Shown here: piece by piece, positions 1 through 62,721 of the stretch
Layout: each line of letters starts with the position of its first letter
How positions within the stretch are numbered: position 1 is the first letter of the stretch
From: Nautilus pompilius
Taxonomy: Eukaryota; Mollusca; Cephalopoda; Nautilida; Nautilidae
Direction of reading: 5' to 3'
DNA: 64,000 nt
NCBI GenBank assembly: GCA_018389105.1
Contig: JACATO010001579.1
Span: 1 to 64,000 of the forward strand
Program-made: the position numbers and the translations under genes
Notes under the pieces: model-generated
What the model saw: the letters and a program-made list of their open reading frames with translations, nothing else
The model's database searches: none
Told to the model about the DNA's origin: nothing

Positions 1-1144
1 TTTTCTTTTACCAATGGAATGTTCTTTGAGGGTATATTGTTGGTTTTGCTAACTTCCATTAAGCTGGTTATCATTCAAGATGCAAGATTTTCCTTTGCTT
101 TCCTCCTCCAACAACAAACTGTTGATGTCCATACATGACTCTAATATTTTTCTGGAAGCTGATCATGCCATGCCCAAAAGGTTAGCTTATTGGCTATGAA
201 AGCAGAAATACATTGTAATTTTGCTTTGAAAATTCACTGTATTTATTTTTACTGCGTGTAATGGCTTCAATAGGGTTAGTGAGGAATTTGAAACTATCTG
301 ATATCTGTTTACACATGATATCACAATACACAAACCTTCATATGGTCAACATGCCTAGCAGATGGCCACCTTACTACTATGCTGGGGGCTCACTTTCATG
401 TATACAGTCGAGAGAATGCATGTTCACGTGCTGATATTGAGCTATTAGTCTGTGTTGTGGTGATTGTGTCATTCCTCATCCTGTGTATGCTGAACATAAT
501 CTAGCTTGTTGATGAACTTTGCTTCTCCAAAAGATGTCCACATCTGATAGTAAGAAGTGCACAAACTAAATAGAGAAGAGAAAATGTTAAGCTGTTTTTA
601 TATGACCATAGTTCAAAATTTCAAGTCTTCAAGCAGACATCATATGGAAAACAGCTTTGGAGTTTGTTTAATGTATAGAAATAAATTATTGAAGATGCAT
701 GGAGGGAAATGTTGCTGAGATGAAAATAACAAAATGAGAAGGTGTTGGTAGCAGAAATTATCTATAAACAAAATGCTTACATCAATGTTGGAGGACCTAC
801 TGAGAATACCAAAGAGTTTGATTATCTCAACATGTTCAAAACTTCCACGTTTTGATATTTTCACTTCTATTCCACTGCTAATATATTTTGAACAAAAGAT
901 CACTTAGGTTGTCAGTGATCCAAATGGTCTTTTAATGCAATTATTTGATATCAGTGAAATGCATTTCAGTTATGAAATAGAATTTTATTTAGTTTACATA
1001 TGTAAAATGTTTCTTTATTTAATGAAATTTTATGGTGAGGTTTACTTGATGTATACTTTGTGTTGTTGGTGATTTATATTTTAAGTCAATTAACAATATT
1101 ATATATACTTTAATTGTCAGTAGTTGATTTTACTTTTGTTGCAG

Positions 1145-1422
1145 ATGCTCCATATGATCCCCCAGTGATTTCCGGAATAAATAGTAACAAATTTGTTTAT
1201 GAGAATGATAAAGTTAAGGTGTATTGTTCATGGAGAGGTGGGAATCCTGACAATGCTCGTGTGACTTTGAAGTGTCCAGGAAACTCTCCTACCACAGACA
1301 CGCTAACAGTCAGTAAATACATGACAGTATCAAAACTGATGCATAGAAAACATTGCATTTGCACTGGATTGCACATACTTAAACGGTGATTGGTACATCG
1401 ACACAAGTCTTCAAAGTTTCTT
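1145..1422 (+). pseudogene. Gene A exon Ig4, one-base frameshift
   Basis: The exon runs from an acceptor (ttttgttgcag) to a donor (gtaagttc), both identical in unit B. It encodes the start of an Ig-like domain (APYDPPVISGIN, then VKVYCSWRGG). It is 278 nt against 279 nt in unit B. Near 1370-1390 unit A reads cacatacttaaacgg where unit B reads cacacacataaaacgg. The lost base puts TGA in frame shortly before the end of the domain. The lost part includes the final strand, so the product would be truncated or the exon skipped. Skipping keeps frame in the normal gene, because the exon is phase 1-1. Confidence 0.85.
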
Positions 1423-2282
1423 GTAAGTTCAGTCAAAGAATCTTTTTGCATTTGTATAGTAAAACACCATTTATCCACATTATTTGAGTTAGAAATCTTA
1501 GTGAATCAGCAAAGACGTAGATAATTAGATAAATAAACATCCCAAAAGTAAGACCAGGAGTTAAGAAATTTGAATCAGCTGAAAATAACCAACTAATTTA
1601 TTCTCTAAATGATGAGACAATCTGGCAATTTTCTCTACTTCCATTGAGTTTTATATGCATTAAGTGTATCCACTAATAAAGAAAATTTCAGTGGCACCAT
1701 TTTCTAGGCAGTCTTTCCCCAGCTTGATTCATTGGTACCAACCAAATTATGGAAGGTCATAAGTTACCAAGGTAAATAGTCTGTTCTTTAATCGTTAAGT
1801 AAAAGTCACCCATACAGCGACAGTGTACACCTGTTTTTGTCTCTGGAACCGCAAGTATCTTTTACCCTGTGGACAATGTCATCAAAGATCATATATTTCC
1901 TTGTAGCTACTTTACTGTGCTGTTTTCAAATTTTCATTGAAAAAATAAGTAATCTTTCTTTATGGTGCAGGACAGGTAACACATTCTAATGGTTAGTTGA
2001 CACATTATCCTCCTCCAGCAGGGTTTCCTCAAATTTGAGAAGTTCTCTCTGTTATTGCAAGCAGTGCAGTACACAACCACAGTAACAACAAGAAATGTGA
2101 TCAATCTGTTAGTAAATCACCTGACAATGTTTCTGTGACATAATGGCAACATAATGCGATGAATTGATTGTTATGTAGCATAAATATAATTCTTTATTCA
2201 TGCCATTGGCTTTCCAATGAGCTATTTTTGTTTAACTGTAATTACTATGTTACAACAAATAATATGATGCAAAAGGGAAACA
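1423..2282. other. Intron shared by both units, no gene seen
   Basis: This stretch is intronic by position and matches unit B (43233-44095) closely. I see no exon with paired splice sites and no repeat. Confidence 0.5.
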
Positions 2283-5200
2283 TACATGCAAATATTTTCT
2301 TTTTATTGTGTATTTATTGTCTAATACCTTTGCTGCTGTAATAGTCCATTGGTACATTCATTAAAACTCAATTTGGAGTGGTTGAATGTATGTTGCATGT
2401 AGAAGAAAAGCAATCTAATAAACCTAAAAGAACAAGAGAAATGTGGACTCTCTTGTACATGCCTTCCCTTTACTTTGTATTATCAAAACGGAAGAATCTT
2501 AACGGTAAAGTTAAGGAGTAAAACAATTGATATCATTAAGATTAATATTGTTGTGAGAGGTATACCTGCTGGGTATTTATGTTTGTTTCATTTATGGAAT
2601 CTGACTCGTTTTTCCTTTTTTGTTTTTCGTATCATGCGAAAGTTTGGTGTGTATGTAAAGTTGCATATGTGTGTGATGGAGCTGGGTCGATTCCACGACC
2701 GGCTGCCACGATTAGCCAAGGGCATCATAAATGTTGCCAAAGTGCTGGTGGTAATTCTCAAGGAAAGTAAATTGGTTTGAAAGCAAGTGTAGAACCATCA
2801 TTACTAGTTTGTGTCCCCATTAAGGACTAAAGGTGGTAAAACAATCTGGATGTGCTGCGTTGGGCAGCCAAACAGCTGCACAATTGCAGCAGCTCATTAG
2901 CATGACTGACTGGTAAGTTTAGTAATCGAATTCGTCAGAATAGGGGAAAAGAAACTGAACTTAATGAGGAATGATTACCATTTGTTGTCTGGTTGTGGCT
3001 GCTGTTTGTATTTAATTAATCCATTAATTAGTCACGTTTTTAATATAAAAATTTCCTACCCAATGGCAAAATTTACTGGCGATGAGTTACTCGTTTTAGT
3101 AATAAGAGCAGAGGATTGACTTTAGCAGCACAGAAGGTACTCGGACATTGCTGCTTGTACAGTTACTATTCTTGTTTGCCACAACATAATTATAAAGAAA
3201 ATGTAGAACCTGGTTGGTTGTAATTAGTTTGTACTTTTAATTGCTTTTTATTACTTGAATGTACAGTGTGGGCAATATGGAATAATATCAGCTGATGTGG
3301 AGTGAGGGGTGTCTGAGGTAGAATATGCTCTGCATGACACAGAAGCCAAGAGCCCATGAGTGCTCTGGGATTGATGATTATCACTACAGACCGATTAATG
3401 GAAACTAGGCTGGTCATCCCAATATTAAATTGTTTTTAAATATAATTTCTATTTGCACGTTATCTTTAAAGTATGTTTGGAATAAAGAGGATTTATTATA
3501 CTTTCAATAAAGAAAATTAGTTCCAAAACATTAAATTAATTGAATTCATGTAACCAAATGCAAAAGCAAAAAAGGAAATTTTGAAATTGTAAGATTCTTT
3601 AATCACTTTTATTGGTTTGGTGGTAAAGTTAGTTTTTAATTAAAAACTGACTTCTTTTTGTTTTCAATAATTTTAACCAGGGGGTGCATTTTTTCCCTTT
3701 ACATATAAGATCATATTGGTCAATACACGAGCTGGCATACAAGTTATTGTAAATAATTTTATTTGGAATATACAGTTTGAATACAAGGCTCTTCATAATA
3801 CATGGTTGGGATGAGACAAAAACTGGAGGTAAACATCAGGAAAACAGTAAAACTATGCTAAAGTCTGGAACCTGGTTTGAAATTTGAGTTATTAGCATGT
3901 ATAGTCTTAATATTTTGAAAAAGCATGTTAATTTTTTAAAGTCTGCTATGTTTGTATTTACCATGGTTAAGGAGGAAGTGCACAATTTAATGCTGTTAGC
4001 TAGCTGCTGCCATTTGTGGCATGATAGCAGCATAGGGAGAAAAGACCGAAGATGCTTTATATGGGTAGATCTACACTTTAGAACAATTGTTCATCAATTT
4101 GTCATTTGGTCAAGAGAATCCAAGAAGCTGTAAATAGACAGGGTTTTGTAAACATATTTAAAGATGTAATGAGTGTGTGTTTGCAGGAAGCATTTGATAT
4201 TGAAATCTTTATTCATAGTGAGAAGAAGAAAATCAATGTGGGGATAAACTATCAGCAAAGTTACTAGACAGGTAAATGTGTGTGGATACTGAATGGGCGC
4301 TACTACTCCTGAAGTGGAGAAATACAGTCCAGGGGACAAAATGTTCAAAAGACAAACCCTATGAACGATCACATTATTGTCAAGTTATATATCTACACCT
4401 ATTTAATATTTTAAATGGTTCTACAGATTTTTGATACCAGTTAGTTTGCTACTAGGTCATATCACTACCATCTTTTACTTCAGGATCTATTGATTTATAT
4501 TTTCTGCTTGCTTTATTCAAGAACGTTAATGGTTGGTTGTGTGGAGCAACCATCTTCACTAAGCCAAAACGACCTCTTCAACAGAGCTTGCTTTTAGAAC
4601 ATTAAGCATCGTTGTAGTAGTGATGTTTTGAACGGTTCTCAGGGTATTCTAAAACGGTTTTATTATTATTCAAAGCTTTAAAATCAAAATACAAAACAAA
4701 TTTTAGAAATTCTTTCATGCTCCAGTCAATTCTACAAAGAAAATTAATTTCATCTGTAGGCTCCTATCTCCTGTAACAAATTTCTGACACACTGTTCAAC
4801 GTGTCTGTATTTCTTTCCTTGCATCAGTGTTTCCAGGAGTACAGTGTACCATTTGGTTCTTGTCAGGATTTCCATTTTCAAAGCAGTTATCAAAGTCCAA
4901 ATGTTGGGATGGTTATTTGTTCCTGTACTTCAAAGGGCAGTGTGAAACTGCTCAATGTTGTTTGTGGATGACATGCTATTTTCAGTGCATTCATGAACAT
5001 TCCAGGAAGTAATACGGAAAATGGGATCATCATGTCTTCTTCTCTGATGTAACACACCTCAAAGTATGAAACTATTTTTTTGGGAGGAGGAGAATCATCT
5101 TCCGCAGTCTCCTCAAAACCATCCATTACATTGTTTCTCTGCACTTGTTGCATTCCTTTCTGTTAGCATCTAACTTTTAGATTAAATTGATAATCTTGAC

Positions 5201-7818: not shown

Positions 7819-8651
7819 TTGGATTCTGAATGTCATGTTTATGATCAAAGTTGACTGAGCAATATTTGCACTTTATCCAAGAAGCAACAATATGTGCTTT
7901 GTCTTGTTAAAGTCCATCGCAGGAAACCAAAGCTTCAACTTGTAACAGCATGATGAGAAGATGGAGGCAGAGAAGCTCGCCATGATTTGAAGGTAGTTAA
8001 TCTTTGAATTAATATGAAGTTGTATTTTTTCTTTCATATTCGTTTGTAAATCAGGGAGGAAAAACCTTTTATTGTTCCTCTCATCTTTCAGTTTGTTTCC
8101 TTTGACCAAGATCTTATGGTTAATCTGTTTTTGAAATTCCCTTTTATTTTATTGATCTTGGGGTTTACAAAAACCTGTGATGTCTGACTGTTTAGGAGCA
8201 GCTCAGTGAAGATGTCATCATCTACTTTCCATTAATGTCTCAATGTTGGATTCTACTTAGCTGTTGTTTGTTAATTTTTATTGCAAGATTTTGTTTGTCT
8301 CTTTTAGCTCCAAGACAATTTCAAATATGTATTTGTTTGTTCATCCTATTTCTTGACTGGAAACATTGACACATCACGTGACCTCAGGTCTTCTCTCCAA
8401 TATTTTTTTTTGGTCCAGGTAAATGACATTGGTACAACAGTAAATTTTGTGTGATTTATACCTGGACAAGTGAAATTGGAATAATTGTGGGATTTATTGA
8501 GAAATAAATGTAACACAAACTTTTTAAAGAAACAGCACAGTATGATACCAATGGTAAACCTAGTATTCAGGACAAGAATGTGATTAGTATGAATCAGCCC
8601 TGTTCATTTTGTAAATATTGTTAATATTTTCTTTTTTATTTTCTTATTTAG

Positions 8652-8956
8652 TCAGACCAGTGGTAAAAATGATATTATCTACACAAAAATCCAGGGCCGT
8701 CGTCAAAGCAACATAACTTGTTACATCCAATCTGATGGAAACCCACCAGAGTACATATTTAGACCATGGGAGCACTGGTGGGGTCAAATCCATCTTCGGA
8801 CTCTCTCTGGTACCAGCCACCCAAGATTCACAGAAATTGTTTCTTTCTCATCAACGCACCAAGACAGTGGCACCTACAAATGTACAGTAACAAATGGGAA
8901 TGCACAAACTGGACGCATTTTTTTTCAGTCATCTGAACTAAAAGTGAAGATACCAT
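8652..8956 (+). pseudogene. Gene A exon Ig5, one-base frameshift
   Basis: The acceptor is ttcttatttag and the donor gtacgttg. The exon codes for a canonical Ig domain, with first cysteine in NITCYIQSDGNPP, the tryptophan region PWEHWWGQ and the closing DSGTYKCTVTNGN. It is 305 nt, one less than unit B. Unit A has tctacacaaaaatcc where unit B has tctacaacaaaaatcc, and the resulting frame meets TAA a few codons later, before the first cysteine. The rest of the exon stays almost identical to unit B, so the break is recent or a sequencing error in an A-rich stretch. Confidence 0.85.
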
Positions 8957-9885
8957 GTACGTTGTGAATTTTCATTTTCTTTTCTCTCTCTCACACGGCA
9001 TCTGACAGCTTAGTTTTATTGTTAACATGACTAATCTGCTGAGTTCCGCATGCTTAACGTAAGAATAATCTGTAGTATTTCCTGCACAATTTTACCACAG
9101 CTAAATGATTATAATGCTGCTTAGTAATGATACAAGTCACTTTTGTGTCTAAGAATGCAGACAACTTTTATTCAGTTTAATCTGTTGATTATAACCAGGG
9201 AAATTAAATAATTACATTTTTAATGTATGGTCTGGGAACAAATACCTGCCTTATAAGTAAATATAAAGAAATTGGCAGAAGTCACATGATTTGTAATGTT
9301 TTCTATATCCCGTATATTTAATGAAATGGAAATATTAGTTTTGTTTTATTTTTGCTTGCTCTCTCTGCAGATTATTGTTGTAGTAAAAATTATTTATTTG
9401 TACTTGATGTCAATTTATTCTCTATTTCTATTTGTTTTTTGTGCAATAATCCACAATCCACCATTTCACATCAGAAGTTATTCATTTATTCATATTTTTG
9501 TTTATTAGTATTCAAATTTCCTATTGAATTGTTTGGTAACAAGTGAAATTTTATACTTCTAAAATCCATTTTTCGGTTACTTGCCAAACAAACTCTTCAT
9601 CTGTGACCTTTAATCCTAGAATGAAAGTATCCAGTAAATGGGAATGTTGACAACTTCAGATCCCCAAATTGTTTGAAATTCAGGAATGCTGTTAACTGAT
9701 ACAAATATTTATACATTTTATGCCAATAGATTTTCACTACATCTACTTCAATTTTCTTTGCTGGTTCTACTCTGAAATCTACATCTTAATGAGATAAGAA
9801 TTATTTGTGATGTGGATGCTGTTTGAGGATAATTTTCTAATACTGATTTGCTCAAAATCTCTCCCATATTTACTGTTTATTTCAG

Positions 9886-28900: not shown

Positions 28901-28929
28901 CTCAGGAAGCTCAATTTCATCATCAGAGA

Positions 28930-32128: not shown

Positions 32129-32899
32129 GTAAGGAAGCAGATCCCTCTGCCCCTCCTCCTCCTCCTCCCCCCCACAATCTCTGGGCCAGAGTTTCCTTTA
32201 ACCCTGACTTCTCCGTGTCAGGTGGCCCGGCACGGAGAGAGGGAGGACACCGTCCGACTTTCCCTCCCCTGTACCATGTCGGGGTCTCCACTGCTGCCTC
32301 CAGACCCTCCTCGGTCGGGTAGAGAGAGATGCTCGCAGGGACCTGTTCTGAACTGGGGCTGTCGCAGAGGAAGCTGGGGGCTCATTGCAGACAAACGACG
32401 CCTTTCAGTTGGGTGCCGGCAGGGTTCTCTCCCTTGATTTTACGGTGGTGGACCTTCTCTTTTCTTGGCAGGTTTTCCTCACCTGGAAGAGGCAGCAAAA
32501 GATGGATAATAAGTGCCAGGCTGAATGGTCGGTGGATCTGTCGACATTAACACAGGAAGAGAGTTGAGTAACTTTACCCCTGACATCCCACATCCTAATG
32601 CTCAGTGTACAATTCCAGAACCTGGCGTACAAATACAGTTTCGATGCCAGTTCTATTCATCTTTTCTCTTCAACTGCATAGAATTTGTTGTATATATTCG
32701 CCAAGTTATTTGCTAAACTACTGCATTCCTACAGCCATTTGTCCCTTTGTTAGGAAACCCTGAACTCGGATATTCGCTTCGTGTCTGTTGTAGCCAAGCG
32801 GTCTTACGAGCTGGTACCGTTTTTCTTTACAGGCCGGATATGTTTGGAAATGCATGTGTTTCATTCATTGTTTGCACTATTATTTTTAGAGGTAAGTAT

Positions 32900-33901: not shown

Positions 33902-36900
33902 GTAAGTGTCTGTACATAGTCCTGGTAGTGATTTGTATTTGATTGTAAGATCATGATGATATTATTCTTGAACGGTGATTGTTTACGGTAGAGGTTTTGT
34001 GTTCCTGTGAAGATGTTGGATGTTTGTATGGAATTATCATCAATGATTCTTTTTTCTTGCAGAAAATAAGTCTATTCTCTGTTAGCTGGTTTGTAGTATT
34101 ATACTTGTGATCTATTGTCTTCCGTTCTCTATCAAAATAGTAGTTATTACAAGAAGCCATTATTTTATCTTTGACGTTTATCACCTTGGTCCTGTATGTT
34201 TGTACTCATGTACTTGACTCTCTTGTTTTGAAATGAAATCTGTATTTTTTATTTCCATCAATGTCACTGGGTGGATGGTTGCGCTGGATAACTAACTACG
34301 TTGCTGATGTTAAATCTAGGATAGTTTCTTTCAGTGTTGTTCTGAATTTCCACTTTTAAGGGATTCCAGCTTGGACAAAGCATCTGAAAGAAATACTGGT
34401 TATATCATCAGTAAAACCCGCAAGTAAATTGTTTGCCATTGTTTTGAGACCATCATTTTATCTTTTGATTACAAATGGAACCTGAAGAAATCACTTGATT
34501 TTCAGTTGCTTCAAAAAACTTTTGTCTGCTTTCATGTAATAGAAGTAGAATTCGTTGTTTCATCTGTTTGTTAAATCTGGAATTGTAAACAAGTTTTTTT
34601 TCACCAGTTTTGTCCAGCAGTTATTTTTAGTTTGTCACTATTTTGTTACTTATGGATGTGCTATGCATGCATCACTGTAACAGATAGCAATACTGAGCAT
34701 CCACTGATACATAACCGTGGTTTTACCTAATTGTTTGTCACAAGTGTATGTAGTCTGCTGGATTCTGAATACAAGCGTACTTAGCAATGTATGATTGGTA
34801 TCGTTTGTATGCTCTCACTAATAAAAATTGGCAGATGTGCTGACACTTGCGAAAGAAAACTGCATATAACCTTTTATGGTTTGAAATCTATTATTTTACT
34901 GTGAATTTCTACTTTTACTGTTGGATTATCAAATAAAATCCATTTGTAAAGTGTAAATCTCTGCTATGGAACAAAAGTTCTGATTTATTAATCATATGAA
35001 ATATTGACTAAATTCGTTCTTCACAAAAGATGCATGGATCATGGAGGTAGTGGATTGTCAGGGTCTGTACTAACTTAATTTTCTTTCCCAATCCTTTATC
35101 TTACTGTTAAACTGTCAATCACATATTAGAGGGATGTAAGGTAGAAAAGTGTTTAACCCATTTCATTCCATAAGCCCCATTTGGGGATCTCCCTTTAGAG
35201 TGAAATTTACACTTTATTTGAAGATTTTACGAAATATAAATTAATTTAAATCACTGCAGAGACATTATATTTTAATTGCGCATTGATAGGCTTTTAATTT
35301 GCATTTTTTTTCTTCTAAATTTCATCTCAAATTTGTACTATTTTCCAATTTTCGACTTTATAACTTCAAGGTAAGATTTTTTTGTCTTTGCTTTATTTGT
35401 AAATTTCAGCATGCCTATCAAATATAAAGTAAATGTATATATTTACCATAGTGTATGTATTTATTCTCTCGCTTACCTTATTCATTTTTGGGCATGTTGA
35501 ATAATGAAGGTCCCATTGGGGATGTGGTATTTTGCCTATATTTTTACCTTTTTTCAGATGAGTAAACCTAGAAAGTTTATGAACATTGACAAGGCTGTAG
35601 AGTTTTTAGAAACCATGGAAGATGAAATACCAACAAACTGTCAACATGAGTCTGTTGATATCATAGAACTTCCACCAGAAACTGTTGATGAAATGAGTGA
35701 TGCCGAAGAATTTGATGTTGAAGAAATAGGTGAAACTCAAATTGTGGATGTGCCAGGAAATGTTGAAGTTTATGTAGGTACAGATGATGAAAGTGAAGAT
35801 GATGAAGAGTCTTACAGAACTTGGTATCAAGGCTTCTGGTACTGTCAGACTCAACAGACTTCCTGGAAATCCTTTTGGAGCAAAGAAGGACCTGATGAAG
35901 AAAGAAAAGGGATTCCTGAAAACTTCTGTTGATACAATTTCTGGGTTGTTTGCTTGCACTTGGAAGGACAATAGCATTGTCAGTGTATTGTCAAATGTTG
36001 ATGGAGTAAATCCAATGAAACAGGCAAATCGTCGAGGCCAGCCAGTTTCAGTACCAAACTGCTGCATCACGGATATAATGCTGGTATGCTCGGGGTAGAT
36101 TTAGCTGATTGGAAGACTCAGAAGTACCGAGTGGGCATAAAGAGTAAAAAAATGGTATTTTTCATTGGTGACTCACTGTCTGGATGTGGCTGTTGTTAAC
36201 AGTCACATATTGTACAGCCTTCTTCATCCGGAAGAAAAATGGACCTCCTCGATTTCAGAGTGTACGTAACAACAGCACTGCTGAAGACTGACCTCAATTC
36301 GAAGCCCAAGAAGCCCGGTGTCAAGGTCCCGAGATTGCCACAGCCACTCAACCTTATTGGTGAAAACATTTTTTAGAAAGAACCGATGATGGGAACAGAA
36401 AATGCAAGGTGTGCAAGAGGAATGCCAGGAAGCAATGTGGACAATGCAACCTTGGATTTCATGTACAGTGTTTTGAAGCATACCATTCTAACTAAAATTA
36501 ACTAAAATATGTGACTTTGTGTGGTAATTTTCTAATTGTAATGAATTATTATGATAAAGTTTTGAATAAATGTTTTCTAATTTGAATATAACAATTTATA
36601 AGTAATACGCCTACATTCCATGATCCCCAAATGGGACTAGTCCTAAAATCACAGTAAATATTTTTTAATTTTTATGAAACTTATTCATAGTCTTAATAGG
36701 TCCTATATCAACTATTACACACTAAGTAAATCAAATTTCTTTGCCCTCTTGAATTCTGGAATGAAATGGGTTAATGAGAATGTCTGCAATTTTTATTCAA
36801 CAAATATTGGGTTTCTTATGTAGTACTGATCATAAAATTACATGAAAGTTTGTTCGTTCATTTCTTTGATGGTTAAGAAAAATTACCCTTGTTGATTTGG

Positions 36901-39900: not shown

Positions 39901-42900
39901 TCTAATGTGAGTATCCATGCATTCTACCCAGTAGTTGCACCTCACTTATTCAAGGTTTACTCATGGACATATTCAGTTGATCACAGCCATTACGTGCCTT
40001 CTACATTCCTATCACTAATTGTGGGTATCTGTTCTTGCCCTTTCAGGACATTAGCCCACAGACTGCTCTAATTTTCAGTATTGTCACATTTTCACCTCTC
40101 ATGCCATTGAAAATACTTTGCTGTCAGCCCATGCGGTTTGACAGGTGAAACAAACACTATAAAATTTATTCAGTTTCTCTTTCTTTTAAAGAAAAAAAAG
40201 ATGGTATTTATTATTTATGGCAGCTACTGGTAGAACCTTTAGGCTATTGAGTGAATGCTTAGCTCCTTTTCAGGCATGATGGACTTGTTTGGACACCTGG
40301 GGACCAAAATATTTCTGTTTGCTTGATTTATCTTGGATAAGCTTTTGAAGGTTTATTAAATTATCTCAGGTCAACTGGAACTTAAGAAAATCTTAAACAT
40401 TTATGACCAGAAGCCAAATTGGCCTAAAGAGAAAATGAAGCTGGCAGAATAGCCTTTGTTATGCAAGTTAGTACATCAGCCAGTGCCTTGGTCAGCTTCT
40501 CTCCCATCACAGAAACTCCCTGAGACAAAGTTATTCTCCACAAACTGATTTGCATAATTAGATCATACCAGATAAACTGATATTTTCCTCCTGGTTTAAA
40601 TCGTAACATTCCTACTGTAAAATGTATTTAATAATTTTCGTACAGATGGATTTTGGCATGTTCTCTCCGCATCTTGAAATTTCAACAGGAAATTAAAAGT
40701 ATGCAGAACAAATTCTCTAAACTCAAAATGTCAACCCAGACATTTCAGAGACAAGGTCACTTGGCTGGTTCCACCTTTTAGTGGGGATTGCACCAAAATT
40801 TCAAGAATAAATTGTATTGAAGAAATCTCAACAGAACAACGATATTATTACCACTAGATAGTATGGCTAACTTATTGGTTATGTAATCAAAGGTGCGGCA
40901 TGGAGTGATTAATGAAATGTCTTTTTTACAACTTAGTTTTTCTATGAATAAGGGGACTTCGTGAACTGTGTTTCTGAAAATAGTTGTAAATAACCTTTTG
41001 AACATGATGTAATTGTGTGAAAACCTTCATTTACAAATTCTGTTTTCTGTATTTAATAAATCTTTGTTTTTCAGTAAAAGTGAATAAAGTTTATATTTCA
41101 AATAATGTCACTGGTAAATCAGCTTTGATTAAAGTGAGAGAGAATGTGGCAACAGATATTTACTGTTCAGCAAATAAAACTGATCCTAAAACTATCATTA
41201 CTTTCTGGGAAGTAAGACAAAATGGACAACAAAAAATGCTACGCCGTATGCAGCAAAAGATCTTAAAGCACAGCGGACTTTACACCACTGAATCTATGAC
41301 ACGCATTACTCCGGATAGACGAGATGATGGAGTTAAAATATACTGCCATGGTAGAAATATTTTTGCTCCTGATTTGGATTTTCCAGGTGTCGATTCTAGA
41401 AATTTGGTGGTGGAAATTCTACGTAAGTATTTTTGACTTTCTGTAAATTTTTGTAAACAATAGTTTTTTTTATATTTTAAAATAATTTGTACTCTAGGTT
41501 CTGAGAGTTAAATCTATTTAAGCCACAGTAGCAAAATGGGTGAAAGATTCATGTTTATACAATGGTGCAGCTATCCAGAGCCTGCTTGGATAATTTAGAA
41601 TTATGCACCTTGGCACAGTATTTTCTTTATCAGCCTACCATAAACTAAGCCTTTGTTAATCTGGTTAAACTCTCTTTGTTTGATTTACTGTCCATTTCCA
41701 GTTTTGCTCTTTCTTGCTGATGTAAATTACACATTTGTTTTCTGCATTGACCATTTGTTGTCACTCCTTCATTGGTTAGTATATGTTGACCGTTTTGTTA
41801 ATTTGATCAATCTTTTTACCACGGAATGTTCTTGAGGGTATATTGTTGGTTTTGCTAACTTCCAATTAAGCTGGTTATCATTCAAGATGCATGATTTTCC
41901 TTTGCTTTTCCTCCAATAACAAACTGTTGATGTCCATACATGAATCTAATATTTTTCTGGAAGCTGATCATGCCATGCCCAAAAAGTTTAGCTTATTGGC
42001 TATGAAAGCAGAAATACATTGTAATTTTGCTTTGAAAATTCACTGTATTTATTTAATTACTGCGTGTAATGGCTTCAATAGGGTTAGTGAGGAATTTGAA
42101 ACTATCTGATATCTGTTTACACATGATATCACAATACACAAACCTTCATATGGTCAAAATTCCTCGCAGATGGCCACCTTACTACTATGCTGGGGGCTCA
42201 CTTTCATAAATATAGTCGAGAGAATGCATGTTCACGTGCTGATGTTGAGCTATTAGTCTGTGTTGTGGTGATTGTGTCATTTCTTAGCCTGTGTATACTG
42301 AACATAATCTAGCTTCTTGATGAACTTTGCTTCTCCAAAAGATGTCCACATCTGATAGTAAGAAGTGCACAAACTAAATAGAGAAGAGGAAATGTTAAGC
42401 TGTTTTTATATGACCATAGTTCAAAATTTCAAGTCTTCAAGCAGACATCATATGGAAAACAGCTTTGGAGTTTGTTTAATGGATAGAAATAAATTATTGA
42501 AGATGCATGGAGGGAAATGTTGATGAGATGAAAATAACAAAAATGAGAAGGTGTTGGTAGCAGAAATTATCTATAAACAAAATGCTTACATCAATGTTGG
42601 AGGACCTACTGAGAATACCAAAGAGTTTGATTATCTCAACATGTTCAAACCTTCCTCATTTCGATATTTTCACTTCTATTCCACTGCTAATATATTTTGA
42701 ACAAAAGATCACTTAGGTTGTCAGTGATCCAAATGGTCTTTGAATGCAATTATTTGATATCAGTGAAATGCATTTCAGTTATGAAATAGAATTTTATTTA
42801 GTTTACATATGTAAAATGTTTCTTTATTTAATGAAATTTTATGGTGAGGTTTACTTGATGAATACTTTGCATTGTTGGTGATTTATATTTTAAGTCAATT

Positions 42901-51900: not shown

Positions 51901-54900
51901 CCATTTTATAAATTTGTTTTGACTTCCAGTTGATGGCACGAAATACGTGATACTGTTTTAGAATTCCACCATATGTTTGTATGAGCAGCTTCAGGTATAT
52001 TTACGTATTTAACCTGGACAAAGGTATTTGATTATGACGAGAATCTTGACAGGCAGTCAAGGGTCTGTAGAAACGGACAAACAGAAATATGAAATTTTAA
52101 TCACTTTTTTCGTTAATTATCTCTTTCTAGGTTAAGAAATCTTCAGACATTTGGTGCTTCGTGTCTATTTAAGTTTCATAAACTGGGAGTTTATGGTACA
52201 TCTTCTCAAATTAATTGAGTTACCATGTTGTAGATTGGTTTCAGTTGTTAGCGGATGTGAACATTTACTGACTTAATTATGATGGACATAAAAATGAACT
52301 ATTTTGTAATCAGCTTTTGTTTTGATTCTGCAGAGTTCAAGGATGGGTTTTGACCATTGGGGAAAGAAAGTGACCAATCCGGTCAATACAGACTGATGTG
52401 ATTACAGTATTTGTTCAGTAAATCCATTTTGGAAAGAGAAACCAAATAAATGTAATAAATGAACCTATTAGTCTCATTCAATTAATAAACATTGGAGTTT
52501 TCTGATTTACTGTTTTATTTAACTTTGCAATCGTAGTCATTACTGAAGTCATTTGCCTTTGATTTTGAAGAAGTTTCAAATTGTATCAGTTGGCACAATA
52601 TGTTATATTTGTTCTTTTAAAATAGAAATGACTGAAATAGCAAAAATATGATTTTTCCTTTGATTAGATCAGGCTAATAAAGCCCCATTTGATAGTCGTC
52701 TTCTGTTGTCACCATTAGGATTAACTTGAGCAGGAATACCGATGTATAAATATTATCGTTGTTTTTAATTTTCAGTGGTGCAAACAGGTCCAGGTAAGAT
52801 GATCGAATTATTTTCATGTCAGGTATTTAACCTACTCTGACCCATTTTGATTTCACCGATTTAGATAGATACTCAACATGGTTATCCAGATATTTCTGAT
52901 CTCAACACTGTGCATACTTATTCAGGGCCATCTTAAGAATATTTGAGGACCCCTGCCCCACCCCTGAACACATTAAAATTAAGTTTTTAAACTGGGAAAT
53001 TTGTGGCATTTCATTACAGAAAATTGCTTTATAATTGATTGAAAGTCTGTTTTTGAGTATGTCGCTTTCAATGCACATGAGGAAAAGCAAATTCAACCAC
53101 TGCTGTTCCATTGTGCTGCGAAGATGATTCTTTGTAAGTTTCAACCTGGAAAATGAATGCTCCCCGGTACAGTTGGTCACCATCATGCACACACATATTC
53201 TGAGTGTGATTTCAACATTTGGAATCACAGTTTTCAGCTTATCTGAAATGAGTTTGCTGTACGTGTCTGGAAGAGTCTTGCATTCTTCATCGTTGACAAT
53301 GTAGTGCTTGAATTGCTTGCATTCATTGAGTAATTCATTGTAATCAAGATCTTCATGATAAGCATTAGCCAATTTTTCACACCTTTGACTAAGCTCATTA
53401 CAGTCAATTGTTTTTAATTGACTGAAGGAGGAAAACAGATTTCCAATACTTTCGTAGGCTTCTGCACGTTTAGTCAGGTGAGAGTCCAGAACAGGAAAGT
53501 ATGTTTCCACCTTGAATTTTTCAATTTCGTGGAGAAGTATCTGTTCTGCTGACCCATCATATCTGGTAAGACACACATTTCACTCTCTTGCACATTTGTC
53601 TCCATCACTATATTTCAAATCTGCACACCTGCTTTTAGCCTTTGCTTCATACTCACTGAATTTGTCTCTCATTTCCTGAAGATAAGCTTTCAGAGACTTC
53701 CGGAGATCAATGGCAACGATTATGTCCACATCTTTTGACTGCAAAATTTTACTTGTTTTTGTTCACTCTTTCCAGAATGTCATTCCAAAGAATTGTCAAA
53801 AAGATGTTTTCTAGCTTCTCCATTTTCTTGCTCAATCTTTCTGACACACGTCTTGTGTTCCACTCCTGATCAGCATCAACTGCGAGGGCATCCAATGCAT
53901 TTTGAATTTCCTCAAAACCTCCATGAAGAGCAGTGACGGCATCGAAATGTGCTGACCGTCTCATGTCAGAGAGACACTTGACTACAATATGATTCTTTCC
54001 CAAGGATGTCGTCAAAACATTCTAGCGATGTGTGGAAGCCAAGAAAAAAGGAATACAAACACTGAACAAAGTTAAAGCAGATGATCTGTGGAGCACACTC
54101 TGCCGCTTTTACTCCCACCAAGTTCAGACTGTCCAGCACAAGGGATATATATAGCAAATTCATTTAGTTCAAGGATCCATGTTTGCAATCCAGTGCAGCA
54201 TCCTGCCATATTTCATTTTTTATGAGTTGTTGGGTTATTGTCTGGCAACCGGTGATACAGGCATATTGGATGTAAGGTAATTTTTGTATACTCTCTTCCT
54301 TATAAAAAGTGCTTCTTATATGCCGGCAAACATGGTTAACCTTAATTTTTATTTTTCAAATTGAATTTTGTGTCCCCTAATATCACGGGGACCCCAGGCA
54401 ACTGCCCGGTGTGCCCATGCGATAAGTTCCAAAGACATGTGGATATATTTTGATTTTGTTTCTTAATAGCTTTGCTCAGGATCTTTGAAGGGATAAAAAG
54501 GTCAGTCATTAGAACATGATTATTCAGATCTCTATAAGCCTATGACCCCAGCATGTTCAAGGGAATAAAGTTATCTAAACATCTCTTTTCAACATAACCC
54601 AAGAAATTCTTCATAGCATAGTAAGACAAGCAGGTGATGGCACTCATCTTTCTTGATTGCTAAAATACCTTTGTGATACAGTTTGGGAAGGCTAGGACTA
54701 CCATCACTTGTGTAAGATATACAAACAACCTCAATAATATGTCTCATGAAATCCACAAGCAGCAATTGGAAATTCTACAGATCATCTACAGCGTTGGAAC
54801 AAAACTCTTAGTGTATTAATCCTATTCTTTGATCCTTTTCCATAGAACACTTCATTATTCCTGATTCTAAAGTTAAAAAATAAAAGACGTCATTTTTTCT

Positions 54901-57900: not shown

Positions 57901-60900
57901 AAGTCCAGAATTTTCCCAGATCTGCCATGTGCCATGTCCCAAGGTGACCAAGATATTTGATTGTTTTGATACTACCTATTCAATTAAAACATTATGCTTT
58001 AAAAATGCTTCAGGGGTTGTCTATTGCCTACCACTGCCATAAATAATCATCTCCCCATATGATGAATATAATGTGTTTTCCAAATATGAATAACCTTTTA
58101 TTACCAATGTCCAAATGTCGGTTGATTTGTGAAAGAAATAACAAAATACATCTTTAATCAGGTTGACAACAGGAATTGATGAAGTGCTCTCATCGAGATG
58201 ACAATGATGAAACTGTGTCGTCATTGAATTTTCTGGTAAACTGTATTATTTCAAATGACTTTAATTATTGTCCTGTTTGTGTATTTTCATTACAATATTA
58301 GTCAAGTCGGTCTCAATATATAAACGCGTGTACATTTCAAACGCAGATAACTTTCATTCAAAAGGCAGTAAGACGTATTACAGGTCTCAGCTGCATCCCT
58401 GAGGCGATGTTACTGCACTCTATCTTGAATTGATCATTATTACTAACACAGGATATTTTCTCAGTTGTCTCCATCGCACTAAACTCAGTGATTGGGGAGA
58501 TCATTTTTCATCCAGCATCATTCAATGGCCAAAATCAGTTGTTGTTGATAAAGAATGAAATATTTTGCTGTTTTCCATTTCTACTGATTTCACTCCAAGC
58601 CACCACCACCACCACCATACATATGAGGTAAGTAGTTTGTGTACCTGTGACCTAACAGAACAGAAAAATATCTCCCATGTTCTATTGATTACTGAACATG
58701 ATCTTTTAAAATTTAATCATAGAAACCCAACGAAAATACCATGGGGGGGCAGCGTTGAGAGGCTGTGTTAAATCAAAACATGCGAAATGCCTACTTCTGG
58801 GTAACTCGTGGTCAGTCAGGTACAAAATGATTGTAGGTTCCAAACAATGGAGTCCCTTCATTGCCAAAGCTCCAAGAAAGCCAGACTGCTTGTCATCTGC
58901 CTAAATATTGAGGTTTCTCTCTTTACTATGGAATCCTACCCCAGCATTCTTTCTCTCAGGTTTATACTGAAGTGCAGTAGGTGCCTGTCATCCTTTGATT
59001 TTCAACGAGTTACTGCTAAAATTCCTCGATGTGCTACCTTTCCAAAAGATATTGTTAAATTCTAAAGACCCTGTTCTAGTGGTTAAATGATAAGAAGCTA
59101 GAAGTAATCTCGCTGATATTTGTTAACACAATATTAGACATTTTCATTGGTAGTTGATTTTTCAAGCATTTTAAATTATTTATCTGCTTTGTGTTTGCTA
59201 TAAGAATACAAATAATTCTTGAAATTACAATGCTTAAGGGTAAAATCAAAATACAAAGAATACCTGTATTTCTAGGTTGCATCATGTAAACCATCGGACT
59301 AACAACATGTAATATATTACACATTGACAGTACATTTCAACCTACGAATGATTGTTAAAATCATTCTACCTGTAGCATTGTCTAGAAATTTTCAAACATA
59401 ATATATACTAAATATGGCAAGATTTCAAAGCTTCCACTGATGAATGATGGGTTTATCAGAAAGACAAGCTAGTGAATTTAGTAACTGATCATCGTTTGTT
59501 CTCCAGTTGACTTCAGGAATGAGAATGGAAACGCAGTTACCTCATCATACGATTAAGATGATTTCATGTATTTTAAATTTGTATCTATCTACCTGTGTGT
59601 CAGATGACTGGGAGAGAAGAACACATTCACAACACAAATGGAGTCACAGAGAGCCAGAAAACATCCTTTGGTTAAAGGTGAGGTTACCTTTAAGATTTCA
59701 GGTACAAAGATCTAATTTAATTTCTTCTCTTTGAACTTGCATGAAAAGTAATAGTTTCATAGAAATGTTTTCTGAAGTGTGATTTTTATGATCTCAAAGC
59801 TGAGGCACTTGACATTCCCGCCAGCCATGGGTGATAAAGTGATAATCACATAACACATTCTAATTGTTAACTGCAATAAAAGAAAACACAAAACGTCTGA
59901 CATTCTCAAATAATATTTTTGATGTTACAGACACTTTTCAAACATCTACCCGTGTTGGCGTTCAGTATGCAGAAGAAGGGAAGCTACAGAGGTCCAGCAC
60001 ATTTACTAACAATATATCGTGTCAAATATTTTTTGTCACAAATAGCAATTACACTAAACATAATACCAAAAGGCTATTGATTGAAACAGACAGTAGTGCA
60101 AAGAACCTTTGTAAAATTAGGAGAATAAAATGGGCTAAATTTCCATTTAAAGGGACACAGTTGAATTATGTTCTAATGTTAACCCCGCACAAACTGGCAT
60201 CCATATTAGGTGGTCACTATACAGAAACCTATCTGCTTTCACCATCAATTACTCTCGAGAAAAGTGGGTTATAAAATTTGCTGAACCATGTATCAAACTA
60301 TTAACCATAACTTGTGACAGCAAGAATCTGTATGATTGCATCCCCAGCTAGTTATTTCTATAATACGTTATTTCGTTTTGTTTGCTGGATGTTTTACAAG
60401 AGTTGTCTGTGTGTGGTTCCAAATAGATTACAGAACCTCCAGTTAACCTACCGATCAGTGTACAGAAGGACGTACTTCTCCACGAGCTGAGACAGAGCCA
60501 AGGACTCCCAAGAGTTTATACTGTGCTAATTTAGTAAATTCAAATAATTTATCTGAAAAATATTTTGCAAACAAATTAGTTTATTGCAGACAACAAACTC
60601 CAACAAGTCTCAATGAAATAAAATAATGATATCAAATACTTTAAATGATGCGATAAAAGTCTTTGTTAAGCTCGCACGACTTGTCAAATGTTGGGAAGAC
60701 AACAATTATTCTGGAAATTAGATGAAATGACAAATTTATTTAATAGAGCCTAAATGAGAACAAAATATGTTAACTTAGAATAATTATAATTAAACACTAC
60801 CTTATCAGAAAAAACCTTTTGTCGTTATAACCACCAAGCAAATTCTAGGCATTCTATCAAATAAATTTTCAGAGTAGACTGGTATTAGTGAGTTCTGAGA

Positions 60901-62250
60901 AATATTCATGTACTGCCCCAACTGTTGTATCGTACATCATGTGTCATTTTTCTGTTCAACAATTCCAAAGGTAACACATGTCGGAATCATGCAGACAAAG
61001 AAAACATCTGCTTATGAAGTCGTCACATCAACAAATTATTGCCTGTGATCGTAGAATAATGCAGTAATCTTCAATGCATGTTGTTCAGTTTGTTTTGAAC
61101 AATTCACCAACGTAGTTTGCTTCAAACATTATGATACCACCCAACCCCTAACGATCTACCGTAACTGTAACACACTAATCACTTTAGCGTTATCAAAGCT
61201 GCCGATTACCGAAAAATGGTCACAAATCACCTTAAAGAGTAAAATATCAAATGTGTTTCACGATCTATTTCTCCCCAACCCCGACGTCACCTAAACCCTA
61301 TAGAACATGTCTGGGATGAGCTCTCTTGGAGCACAGAACAATGGATACATGCATCTGGAACCATTTCTGCACTGTGCCAGATATCTGGTGTATAGTATGA
61401 AATGCAGGTGTAATGCTGCAGTGAAGCATAGAAATATCAATGCACACTACTAAAGGTCATGTGACTATAGGAGAGGCAGACTATGACTTATTCCCTGTAA
61501 TTAAGATATATCTAGATATTCTGCAATTGAATTCTATGTCACACTTTCTGATTAGGTTTGAACCCTGTGCAGGTTTTTAAAATCCTAAATGGCTTTGTAC
61601 AATTTATTTCCCTATATAGTTTAAATCTTTTGTCAAGTTGTTATGGTTGCAAGACCATTGTGTGTGAACCATAATATTTCTTTTACATCCATTCTCAAGC
61701 AGCTGGTAAGTGTAGCTTAGAGTGAGTGAGAAGTACTACTGCAGCCAGTCGAGTCAAACAGATAACTAATACTGAGGTAATGACAAACAAACTGATAATC
61801 TAGAATACTGATTACAGATATCTGTGTATTTCCCTCCTCTTATTCCATAATATTAGTAAATCCACAAAATAGGAATTTAAAAAAAACAGAATAATCATGT
61901 CTACCCCCCATTGTACCTCTAATCCAAACTGACAACATGCTTCATCTTCAGCTGTTTTCTTGTCATGGTTGAGTCTGATCTGTTCCGTTTTCTTACATTT
62001 ACTTTTCTCTGCCTGCCTCCTATTTCTGATTCAAAGTCTGAACAACGAATTGCACTGTTTATCAAAAACAATTTTAGCAAAATTGTTTACACGTTTTCAG
62101 TAGCAGGAAAAGCAAACAAACTCCTCCCATCAGATTTGTTACAGCCAAACACAACAACACTCTTCAGATCATCAATCAAATTAAACACATGTACAGATCA
62201 TCAGATAGAAAGTATAGATCAACTTACTGCAGAGACAAGTAAAATGACAG
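33831..62250 (+). CDS. Gene B: Ig-superfamily transmembrane receptor, multi-exon model (frameshift in Ig6)
   Basis: The model is signal peptide (33831-33901), Ig1 (37570-37878), Ig2 (38313-38636), Ig3 (41075-41422), Ig4 (42954-43232), Ig5 (45955-46260), Ig6 (47197-47520, frameshifted), transmembrane (49319-49468), and tail microexons 52776-52793 and 55112-55147. Further tail candidates extend to 62250. All main junctions are GT-AG and phase 1, so each Ig domain is one exon. The product would be a type I surface receptor with six extracellular Ig-like domains, of the kind used in adhesion or immune recognition. Function is inferred from layout only. An internal stop in Ig6 means the gene as given encodes a truncated, membrane-less protein unless that exon is skipped or the sequence is wrong. 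Confidence 0.75.
33902..35152. other. Intron 1 of gene B, left part
   Basis: AT-rich intronic sequence, with no supported feature seen before the piggyBac element. Confidence 0.5.
35157..36770 (+). mobile_element. piggyBac element with intact ends and internally deleted transposase
   Basis: Both ends carry a perfect 14-bp inverted repeat, CCCATTTCATTCCA (35157-35170) and its complement (36757-36770). They are flanked by TTAA on each side (35153-35156, 36771-36774), the defining piggyBac target duplication. A second, subterminal inverted repeat (ccccatttggggatc near 35175, gatccccaaatggg near 36622) lies further in. The body, 1.6 kb, holds transposase pieces but lacks the middle, so it should be non-autonomous. 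It sits in intron 1 of gene B. Confidence 0.95.
35558..36495 (+). pseudogene. piggyBac transposase, core deleted
   Basis: From ATG at 35558 comes an acidic N-terminal region (NIDKAVEFLETMEDEIP, then many Asp/Glu), as in piggyBac proteins. After about 90 codons the sequence passes, through a frame change near 35810, directly to the late part of the family: GIKASGTVRLNRLPGN, then DLADWKTQKYRVGIKSKK (the region of the third catalytic aspartate). It finishes with a C-terminal cysteine finger CKVCKRNARKQCGQC plus HVQC (about 36397-36475) ending at TAA 36493-36495. Roughly the central half, with the first two catalytic aspartates, is gone. Other frame breaks occur. Confidence 0.85.
37570..37878 (+). 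CDS. Gene B exon Ig1
   Basis: This is a 309-nt phase 1-1 exon, from acceptor taaaatttttag to donor gtgagttc, open throughout. It has a first cysteine in KIWITCFTHTGG, a core tryptophan in EIEWWLGG, and an ending SDHGIKIYCESGG, the DxGxxYC variant of the Ig F-strand motif. An N-glycosylation sequon (NQT) occurs in the middle. It lies outside the duplicated block, so no second copy is in the window. Confidence 0.85.
38313..38636 (+). CDS. Gene B exon Ig2
   Basis: This is a 324-nt phase 1-1 exon, from acceptor tcttttacag to donor gtaagtat. It starts APVKNLYIGNYYG. The first cysteine region is SRSCHCTATYVKP, the core tryptophans lie in IIKWYWIKDRE, and the ending is NADHRRIIYCKGYN. An NIT sequon is present. 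Two cysteines close together at the B strand are unusual for a simple Ig domain. Confidence 0.85.
38637..41074. other. Intron between Ig2 and Ig3
   Basis: Nothing recognised; open frames on the minus strand (40424-40609, 40778-41005) have no supporting motif. Confidence 0.5.
41075..41422 (+). CDS. Gene B exon Ig3
   Basis: This is a 348-nt phase 1-1 exon, from acceptor gtttttcag to donor gtaagtat, open. It starts KVNKVYISNNVTGKS. The first cysteine is in TDIYCSANKTDPK, the tryptophan in ITFWEVRQNG, and the ending is DRRDDGVKIYCHGRN. NVT and NKT sequons are visible. It is longer than the neighbouring Ig exons, with a basic loop (KMLRRMQQKILKHS). The left edge of duplicated unit B lies about 390 bp downstream. 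Confidence 0.85.
42954..43232 (+). CDS. Gene B exon Ig4 (intact)
   Basis: This is a 279-nt phase 1-1 exon with the same splice sites as 1145-1422 but without its deletion. It codes APYDPPVISGIN, VKVYCSWRGGNPD, TLKCPGNSPTT, then HRKHCICTGLHTHKT and TQVFKVS. The order Cys, loop Cys, then CIC near the end fits an Ig-like domain with an extra cysteine pair. The usual DxGxYxC ending and an obvious core tryptophan beyond that in SWRGG are not seen. Confidence 0.85.
44303..45388. other. 1.1-kb segment present only in unit B
   Basis: Unit A reads ttaatatgaagttgt where unit B has 1.1 kb ending in a (TA) tract at about 45367-45388. The boundary falls at a TA dinucleotide. No inverted ends and no coding remnant were found. 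It could be an insertion or a unit A deletion. Confidence 0.6.
45955..46260 (+). CDS. Gene B exon Ig5 (intact)
   Basis: This is a 306-nt phase 1-1 exon, from acceptor tcttatttag to donor gtacgttg, open. It starts RPVVKMILSTTKIQ; the first cysteine is in NITCYIQSDGNPP, a PWEHWWGQVHLRTLSG stretch follows, and the ending is DSGTYKCTVINGN. The W..H....G......L.G pattern followed by DxGxYxC resembles Ig domains common in mollusc receptor genes. It is the intact counterpart of 8652-8956. Confidence 0.88.
47197..47520 (+). pseudogene. Gene B exon Ig6, frameshifted
   Basis: This has the same splice sites as gene A 9886-10212 but is three bases shorter through two separate losses. One base is lost near 47345 (ccatttttcaagg against ccattttgtcaagg) and two near 47488 (gggtaacagcc against gggtaatacagcc). 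Frame is restored after the second, but the first shift meets TGA at 47361-47363. As given, gene B stops here before the membrane span. Skipping the exon would keep frame. A base-calling error at the first site alone would not repair the second. Confidence 0.85.
49319..49468 (+). CDS. Gene B transmembrane exon
   Basis: This 150-nt phase 1-1 exon is near-identical to 12026-12175: stalk EPEAIVGVAGNLP, helix from IGIPIAAFFVGLVL to VAVI, and basic stop-transfer SRYIYRRLLFKQRAEH. Amino-acid changes against gene A cluster in the cytoplasmic flank (M to L, L to F, I to R). Confidence 0.92.
50623..50720 (+). CDS. Candidate alternative terminal exon with hydrophobic end (gene B)
   Basis: This is the unit B copy of 13318-13415, with the same acceptor, frame and stop and no coding difference seen. 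It begins GFSPGSSYNTA and ends FVVLWLKLK. The same caveat applies: intronic conservation around it is just as high. Confidence 0.3.
51341..51376 (+). CDS. Candidate 36-nt tail exon (gene B)
   Basis: This is the unit B copy of 14035-14070 with unchanged splice sites. It gives EEEVED then stop in phase 1. Confidence 0.35.
52776..52793 (+). CDS. Gene B tail microexon, 18 nt
   Basis: The acceptor taattttcag and donor gtaagatg bound it; phase 1-1, coding VVQTGP as in gene A. The hAT insertion lies 130 bp downstream in the following intron. Confidence 0.6.
52923..54163 (-). pseudogene. hAT (ZMYM1/DUF4371-type) transposase, 5'-truncated
   Basis: Three minus-strand frames (54163-53966, 54015-53749, 53576-52923) together form the C-terminal half of a hAT transposase. 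The first has LLYISLVLDSLNLVGVKAAEC; the second VVKCLSDMRRSAHFDAV, DALAVDADQEWNTRR and SERLSKKMEKLE. The third ends in the hAT dimerisation signature CTGEHSFSRLKLTKNHLRS followed by LLFLMCIESDIL. The TTF-type zinc finger and N-terminal catalytic region of ZMYM1-like proteins are missing, and at least two frameshifts break the rest. The long clean third frame suggests recent arrival. Confidence 0.85.
52923..54426 (-). mobile_element. ZMYM1-like hAT element, unit B only
   Basis: Unit A has an uninterrupted intron here, so this is an insertion. The left end begins cagggccatcttaag, typical of hAT terminal repeats (CAGGGC...). The right part ends ccaggcaactgcccggtgtgcccatgcgataag, after which about ten terminal bases appear missing, so no clean 8-bp target duplication can be shown. 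The element is shortened compared with full-length relatives and carries only the 3' half of a transposase gene on the minus strand. Confidence 0.85.
55112..55147 (+). CDS. Gene B tail microexon, 36 nt
   Basis: The acceptor is ttttaaatag and the donor gtaagtac. It codes VLERTAPEPGSL, three residues longer than in gene A because of a 9-nt insertion just before the donor. The original donor position (ctg|gtagtc) still has GT, so an alternative 27-nt form is conceivable. Confidence 0.6.
56159..57650 (-). mobile_element. GTF2IRD2-like hAT transposase remnant (unit B copy)
   Basis: This is the second copy of the remnant at 17390-18800. It has the same FERRFHELCVYEWQFQLFF C-terminal piece and the IAKVIGKKIKPLNEGE piece, with a slightly different pattern of short indels. 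It has been inherited with the duplication. Confidence 0.8.
58600..58627 (+). CDS. Candidate 28-nt tail exon with histidine run (gene B)
   Basis: This is the unit B copy of 19803-19830, with the same acceptor, the (CCA)6 run and strong donor. Confidence 0.2.
58960..58980 (+). CDS. Candidate terminal tail exon with tyrosine motif (gene B)
   Basis: This is the unit B copy of 20161-20181; VYTEVQ then stop in phase 0, with an unchanged acceptor. The phase is unproven. Confidence 0.2.
   Translation, partial: VYTEVQ
59604..59677 (+). CDS. Candidate tail exon, 74 nt (gene B)
   Basis: This is the unit B copy of 20801-20874, open in phase 1: DWERRTHSQHKWSHREPEN then LWLK. Differences from gene A are substitutions only. 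Confidence 0.4.
59931..60274 (+). CDS. Candidate tail or terminal exon (gene B)
   Basis: This is the unit B copy of 21128-21546, beginning DTFQTSTRVGVQYAEEGKL. An in-frame codon insertion near the start is tolerated; a later shift ends the frame 24 codons earlier than in gene A. Confidence 0.4.
61265..61435 (+). mobile_element. Tc1-like transposase C-terminal remnant (unit B copy)
   Basis: LNPIEHVWDEL (61291-61323) and SMKCRCNAAVKH (61395-61430) are as in unit A. The roughly 90 bp at about 61070-61155, upstream and absent from unit A, may be a further piece of the same element that unit A has lost. Confidence 0.8.
62101..62250 (+). CDS. Gene B tail exon, 150 nt
   Basis: From acceptor acacgttttcag to donor gtgagctt; 150 nt, phase 1-1 and open, coding AGKANKLLPSDLLQP to LTAETSKMTG. 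It differs from gene A by a few missense changes and no indels, while the flanking introns do contain indels, which favours a coding exon. Any exon after this lies beyond the duplicated block. Confidence 0.55.
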
Positions 62251-62721
62251 GTGAGCTTAGTCCAGAAAGAACAGAAGTTAGAAATTAAATGAAATTTCCT
62301 TTATAGTAAAAAGAGATCAGATGTATGATTCAAGAAAATGTTCAATTATTAATACAGTTCCTCTCTGTGTAAAGCATAAAATGGAAATTTTTTAAAATTT
62401 CACTGGAGCATTCTTAAATCATAGACAATGCTTTCCATTAAATTATAAACAAACATTAATATTCAATAAACCTACCTTAACAGAAATGTCTTGCTACTAT
62501 GAAAATTGTGCTTCTTTGAAGAAAAGGTATCTTTACCTCTACTAATGAGAAACCTTACCTCCAGCCTGGTTGAGGTGCCATCTCTGACGTAATACTGTCA
62601 CTGGACAAAAAACATCTTTCACTGCCTTGCACAAGGACCACACCTTCTTGGTAACAGAAAGACTACATGAATTCAACCAAGGTTTCTTAAAGCAAGGAGT
62701 AATATCCAGTACAGAATCACT

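Follow-up and report, generated by a model that had tools for sequence, protein, structure and literature searches.

A tandem array of near-identical immunoglobulin-superfamily receptor genes with variable outer domains, probably a germline-diversified repertoire

Mammalian KIR and LILR are tandem, near-identical receptor genes of the immunoglobulin superfamily (IgSF) with distal-domain diversity, spread by unequal exchange. The locus described here resembles them in its tandem near-identical IgSF genes and distal diversity, with no sign of homology beyond the Ig fold. In the part of the account compared here, the Alr family of the Hydractinia allorecognition complex is a cluster of IgSF genes whose products cross the membrane once and are highly polymorphic in their outer domains (PMC11067881). 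The locus shares with Alr the clustered IgSF genes, the predicted single-pass membrane proteins and the variable outer domains; in contrast to the low overall mutual identity given for Alr in that part of the account, its units are 93‒100% alike in stalk and introns (PMC11067881). The homology comparison covered Pfam and PDB. In Biomphalaria, PTC and GRC, as partly described, are clusters whose diverse proteins each cross the membrane once and in which large indels occur (PMC7494358), and the present locus is likewise a mollusc cluster of predicted membrane proteins with large indels. The portion of that description compared does not mention an Ig architecture, and it reports synonymous above non-synonymous change among PTC/GRC alleles, whereas here the order is the reverse in Ig1, with pN above pS when units from a single genome are compared (PMC7494358). 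The gastropod FREPs, in the passages compared, are also diversified mollusc recognition molecules with Ig-like domains, but they carry a C-terminal fibrinogen domain, whereas here six Ig-like exons are followed by a transmembrane exon and the known exons end at a tail exon (PMC11999971). The same passages describe oyster CgIgIT2, a microbe-recognizing protein with five extracellular Ig domains, a membrane anchor and a tyrosine motif (PMC11999971). The Ig ectodomain and predicted membrane anchor are common to both; unlike CgIgIT2, which those passages do not describe as an array, the units here have a first tail exon without tyrosine (PMC11999971). A limited search of the open-access literature found no diversified receptor array of this kind in cephalopods, and the word "immunoglobulin" is absent from the main text of the Nautilus genome paper. 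We consider that the locus is probably a germline-diversified IgSF receptor array of tandem whole genes, working in the manner of Alr, FREP or KIR.

The window, the whole 64,000-base stretch of DNA that was analysed, corresponds to positions 1‒64000 of contig C1505 (97,240 bases). Self-BLAST of the window bore out the two direct copies recognized in the first-pass annotation, A and B, aligning 6‒25874 with 41814‒62721 in seven blocks: five long blocks of 560‒7308 bp at 96.8‒98.6% identity and two short ones (201 bp at 90.5% and 263 bp at 81.4%). The five presence/absence blocks reported between the copies were recovered as well; 2293‒7814 and 21704‒23758 in A are without a counterpart in B, and 44302‒45455, 52923‒54436 and 61068‒61160 in B are without one in A. 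The claim that a receptor gene was recently duplicated, with its own history of indels, stands. The features of the two units are as follows, in window coordinates.

1145‒1422, + strand: unit A Ig4 exon, homologue of B Ig4; 278 bases, one short of frame
2293‒7814, no strand: block of 5.5 kb, shared by A with 20 other places and missing in B
8652‒8956, + strand: unit A Ig5 exon; 305 bases, one short of frame, end placed from length
9886‒10212, + strand: unit A Ig6 exon, frame open
12026‒12175, + strand: unit A transmembrane exon
25263‒25406, + strand: unit A probable first cytoplasmic tail exon
25875‒35156, no strand: intergenic spacer, repeated at C1505:64259‒73495 (98.1%)
31501‒32750, no strand: stretch rich in GC and CpG, presumed to be the promoter of gene B
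32833‒32891, + strand: unit B exon probably encoding the leader, with an ATG at 32840, a hydrophobic core and a GTAAGT donor in phase 1
37570‒37878, + strand: unit B Ig1 exon, which varies most from unit to unit
38313‒38636, + strand: unit B Ig2 exon, C2-set_2 match
41075‒41422, + strand: unit B Ig3 exon, C2-set_2 match
42954‒43232, + strand: unit B Ig4 exon
45955‒46260, + strand: unit B Ig5 exon
47197‒47520, + strand: unit B Ig6 exon, frame broken by two indels (1 and 2 bases)
49319‒49468, + strand: unit B transmembrane exon, hydrophobic
52923‒54436, no strand: block in B, absent from A and C; contains a hAT dimerisation-domain reading frame
62107‒62250, + strand: unit B probable first cytoplasmic tail exon; 144 bases, phase 1 on both sides

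The duplication holds up, but the limits drawn around it were those of a contig end. Since copy A is cut off by the start of C1505, its match with B begins at 41814, and the proposal that duplication begins within the Ig3‒Ig4 intron mistakes this cut for a breakpoint. The copying of the membrane-proximal half and tail as a module is an artefact of the same contig start; what is repeated is the entire gene together with its spacer, about 37‒42 kb, and a module boundary at 41810 was rejected. The 16-kb spacer, described as unique, is not: 25875‒35156 recurs at 98.1% just past the window, and comparison with the rest of C1505 matched 36771‒44106 to C1505:73492‒80796 at 95.4% identity. Ig1‒Ig3 do not lie in unique DNA either, as at least 3.2 kb of the 4410-base query 37400‒41809 was found in nine other places at 93‒96%, one of them C1505:74122‒78530. 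C1505 therefore carries three units, one full and two cut, the third (C) being truncated by the contig end. A single two-copy duplication of the membrane-proximal half, with Ig1‒Ig3 and the spacer unique, matches what the 64-kb window shows by itself, but the rest of C1505, with the spacer and Ig1‒Ig3 repeated and the boundary falling on the contig start, refutes it and makes it virtually untenable. A segment of the spacer region, 35157‒36770, is missing from the next spacer copy on C1505 and contains a transposase fragment at 35778‒36095 (+ strand; PF13843, E = 2e-05).

Instead of two copies, the genome (727.6 Mb in 2558 contigs) contains at least 21 near-identical units, spread over 17 contigs; the match counts of these searches are lower bounds. 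The Ig4-region query gave 27 matches, 21 of them near-identical at 93‒100% (the query itself included), and 21 of the 24 matches to the Ig6-region query were near-identical at 96‒100%, the others being two divergent matches on C1311 (D and D2) and one on C119. In a whole-protein search, array copies and close paralogues were found among the best 66 of 268 candidates, the ones scored, a count that does not take in distant relatives. C1505 and the other 16 contigs thus present a tandem cluster of many similar receptor genes. The block 2293‒7814, of which 3.5 kb or more is held by 21 places including A, is missing from B rather than gained by A since it is this widespread, and its reading as a gain by A was rejected.

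Many of the 17 contigs are short, and several begin or end within a unit; the number and order of units are therefore unsettled. These contig ends would also be expected if alternative haplotypes or misassembled repeats had inflated the copy number, and a hemocyanin locus found on two contigs with similar spacing hints that some haplotypes may be kept apart in this assembly. However, three units share the single contig C1505, and among 15 Ig1‒Ig2 regions no pair exceeds 97.7% identity, so that two haplotypes of one gene are insufficient; even two haplotypes throughout would leave about eight or more different genes. In Ig5‒Ig6, pairs of units reach 99.8% identity. Any single pair of units may represent uncollapsed haplotypes, but an assembly artefact as the source of the array is quite improbable.

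Two further observations concern the genome at large. The hemocyanin beta-sandwich domain PF14830, which is typical of molluscs, gave 14 matches, seven each at C557:780470‒791999 and C1362:511129‒522124, and none in 14 named control genomes; the seven units fit Nautilus or octopus, and the two similarly spaced loci are paralogues or separately kept haplotypes. There were also 117 COX1-like matches genome-wide, many with shared breakpoints and internal stops. Because of their number and stops, many of them are probably repeated nuclear copies of mitochondrial DNA. In the COX1-like stretches AGR stands for serine, and ND2 precedes one of them; the control genomes in the COX1 list are prokaryotes.

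In a full unit of the tandem array, a presumed CpG-rich promoter and a leader exon come before the six Ig-like exons, and a transmembrane exon and a probable tail exon after them. The seven exons Ig1‒Ig6 and TM of gene B have AG/GT borders, are in phase 1 on both sides and have lengths divisible by three. A signal-peptide exon scan of 25000‒37570 returned a single match, with its ATG at 32840; this leader exon is also present in unit C with a three-base difference, and in B it adjoins the edge of the GC-rich stretch (GC up to 0.59; CpG observed/expected up to 0.84 versus 0.32 for the window). The segment 31812‒32900 occurs in 17 places at 98‒100%, with no substantial match outside the array contigs. 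At the other end of the gene, the tail-exon peptide was found in 16 places, on array contigs only, and is of full length without a stop in 12 of them. Its 48 codons include no tyrosine, an ITIM- or ITAM-type motif having been sought in this first tail exon. The longer open reading frame 61923‒62288 was rejected as an exon since its length varies among 10 copies, and only 62107‒62250 was kept. The leader-like and hydrophobic exons are judged by composition to encode a putative signal peptide and membrane span, and from these we infer that the genes encode type I membrane receptors.

The composite protein matches the Pfam families Ig_3 (48.6 bits, cut-off 30) and C2-set_2 (36.8 bits, cut-off 21), and the Ig2 and Ig3 exons each pass C2-set_2 alone, which places the genes in the immunoglobulin superfamily. 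The Ig1 exon alone matched no Pfam family, and the six Pfam families that the composite protein matches up to E = 1 include no fibrinogen family. Six relatives were found in the PDB up to E = 1, namely SYG-2, FCRL5, two titin chains, NCAM2 and unc-5, all of them generic Ig matches. The best match is SYG-2 (E = 3e-06, residues 409‒574), followed by Fc receptor-like protein 5 (FCRL5; E = 9e-04). A single-sequence structure prediction of Ig1 had a mean pLDDT of 39.9 and was left unused, and the loops and segments of Ig1 are named by the Cys and Trp landmarks of Ig folds.

The block 52923‒54436 overlaps a reading frame at 52905‒53579 (- strand) for a hAT dimerisation domain (PF05699, E = 7e-07), and approximately 4413‒6031 within 2293‒7814 is a dispersed repeat with 67‒76% relatives on many contigs among the best 38 of 717 candidates, those that were scored. 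Inspection by eye and simple matching revealed no convincing terminal repeats or target duplications of the blocks.

The units differ from one another most in their outer domains. We calculated pN/pS from pairwise counts with a codon bootstrap, using 15 units for Ig1 and Ig2, 18 for Ig3, and 20 for Ig4, Ig5 and Ig6; D, D2 and C119 were excluded from every array rate, and C1311b was excluded from pN/pS, from the reruns with frameshift-free units or without unit B, and from the site-compatibility test. The values are listed by domain.

Ig1: pN 0.138, pS 0.082, pN/pS 1.68
Ig2: pN 0.085, pS 0.054, pN/pS 1.57
Ig3: pN 0.039, pS 0.047, pN/pS 0.83
Ig4: pN 0.029, pS 0.032, pN/pS 0.91
Ig5: pN 0.015, pS 0.024, pN/pS 0.63
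Ig6: pN 0.012, pS 0.013, pN/pS 0.94

Amino-acid change is in excess in the distal domain Ig1 (one-sided bootstrap P = 0.005, the assumptions of the simple bootstrap being violated by recombination and by the relatedness of units; minimum-change binomial p = 0.014), and the excess in Ig2 is marginal (bootstrap P = 0.049, binomial p = 0.3, 95% interval of pN‒pS spanning zero). With frameshift-free units only, pN/pS is 1.66 for Ig1 (11 units, P = 0.005) and 1.49 for Ig2 (7 units, P = 0.054); Ig1 without unit B remains at 1.68 (P = 0.011), and Ig2 with C1311b added is at 1.33 (16 units). Mean entropy in Ig1 peaks in the FG-like segment (1.12 bits), followed by D-E (0.78), BC-like (0.77), C'-D (0.60) and the rest (0.17‒0.50). 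Intron divergence is 0.037 for intron 1 (15 units), 0.015 for intron 3 (18 units) and 0.010 for intron 5 (20 units), so that pN of Ig1 is 3.8 times its neighbouring intron. Since pS of Ig1 is also 2.2 times this intron, part of the Ig1 contrast may be due to homogenisation of the introns or to old lineages and not to new amino-acid change. What the assembled sequence itself shows is the repetition, the arrangement of exons, variation that rises outward and the amino-acid excess of Ig1.

The same outward-rising pattern distinguishes paralogue D from unit B, with amino-acid identities of about 41% in Ig1, 39% in Ig2, 64% in Ig3 and Ig4, 90% in Ig5 and 84% in TM; D is thus close to the array in Ig5‒Ig6. 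D (about 112000‒92000) and D2 (148500‒139300) are divergent inverted paralogues on the - strand of C1311, beside array units. Over about 112000 down to 76001, D supports the exons Ig1‒TM, and a tail exon was sought in D and D2 and was not found. A lone relative of the Ig6 exon (91%) lies at C119:85420‒85876, in a 1.9-Mb contig outside the array contigs.

Recombination is indicated in Ig1‒Ig2, where compatibility between nearby informative sites is higher than after shuffling (p = 0.0005, 15 units). No effect of distance on site compatibility was found in Ig3‒Ig4 (p = 0.40, 19 units) or Ig5‒Ig6 (p = 0.33, 20 units), where incompatible site pairs make up about 45% and 43%, respectively, and could be caused by exchange, recurrent change or errors. 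Among the 10 units with all three regions, Ig1‒Ig2 distances are uncorrelated with those of Ig3‒Ig4 (rho = 0.05) or Ig5‒Ig6 (rho = -0.09), and Ig3‒Ig4 and Ig5‒Ig6 distances correlate with each other (rho = 0.69, p = 0.003), which weakly suggests separate histories for Ig1‒Ig2 and the rest of the gene. However, without the five divergent units, the latter rho falls to 0.10 (p = 0.34, 11 units). Because the correlation hinges on these five units, the scrambling by exchange seems to run along the entire gene and not to be confined to a single module, and the case for a separate Ig1‒Ig2 cassette is weakened; a special cassette is possible. A more specific picture, in which the units of a cephalopod germline repertoire swap blocks, chiefly Ig1‒Ig2, but have their stalk and spacers homogenised, and in which the repertoire gives each individual an immune or allorecognition system of its own, is accordingly put forward only tentatively.

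Many exons of the array have broken frames. We counted 84 frameshifting indels in 34,720 bp of array exon (2.4 per kb) over 23 unit labels, of which 71 are single-base, 63 are deletions and 29 fall outside homopolymers; two are in Ig6 of unit B, and unit A has one each in Ig4 and Ig5. This load, shared by A and B, would suit an array of pseudogenes in which one or a few genes are live and the other copies decay. Yet only three of 11,669 reference-frame codons are stops, two of them adjoining an alignment gap. With equal mutation rates, about 22 should accompany the 325 minimum amino-acid changes, so that stops are some seven times rarer than decay predicts, although conversion from live genes could also keep dead copies stop-free. 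The preponderance of single-base indels and of deletions and the similar 1‒2-bp indels in introns (3.2‒8.8 per kb against unit B) are as expected of an unpolished repeat consensus. Since frameshifts are common and nonsense codons rare, the majority of the frameshifts seem to be errors in the consensus. Some units may be dead, and A and B both carry frameshifts, but a mostly pseudogene array is unlikely.

If the array consists largely of working genes, a type I membrane protein from each unit would display six Ig-like domains at the cell surface. The outer domains (Ig1, Ig2 and a patch of Ig3) would contact diverse or changing ligands, such as pathogens, parasites or self/non-self markers. Unequal exchange and gene conversion would keep the stalk and spacers alike, selection would keep the outer domains different, and the array would hold, in the germline, a repertoire of recognition receptors built on one shared base, with many variants per genome. 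Surface display, ligand binding and a role in immunity or self-recognition are what we infer beyond what the sequence itself shows. A neural or tissue-recognition adhesion family, acting in wiring or self-avoidance, would fit the PDB comparison, where the best solved-structure match, ahead of FCRL5, is SYG-2, a synaptic adhesion protein. However, the SYG-2 and FCRL5 matches are generic Ig matches to the stalk, and the divergence between units is concentrated in distal loops, a pattern more typical of host-parasite or allorecognition receptors. We regard an adhesion family as rather doubtful and favour recognition receptors of the immune or allorecognition type.

Diversified receptor arrays are known from few animals, with cnidarian Alr, snail FREP and PTC, and vertebrate KIR as the examples. 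A further array, from a mollusc that shows cephalopod-like traits, would extend this list. The homogenised introns and stalk, set against the diverging outer loops, would offer a natural contrast for how tandem exchange builds recognition repertoires.
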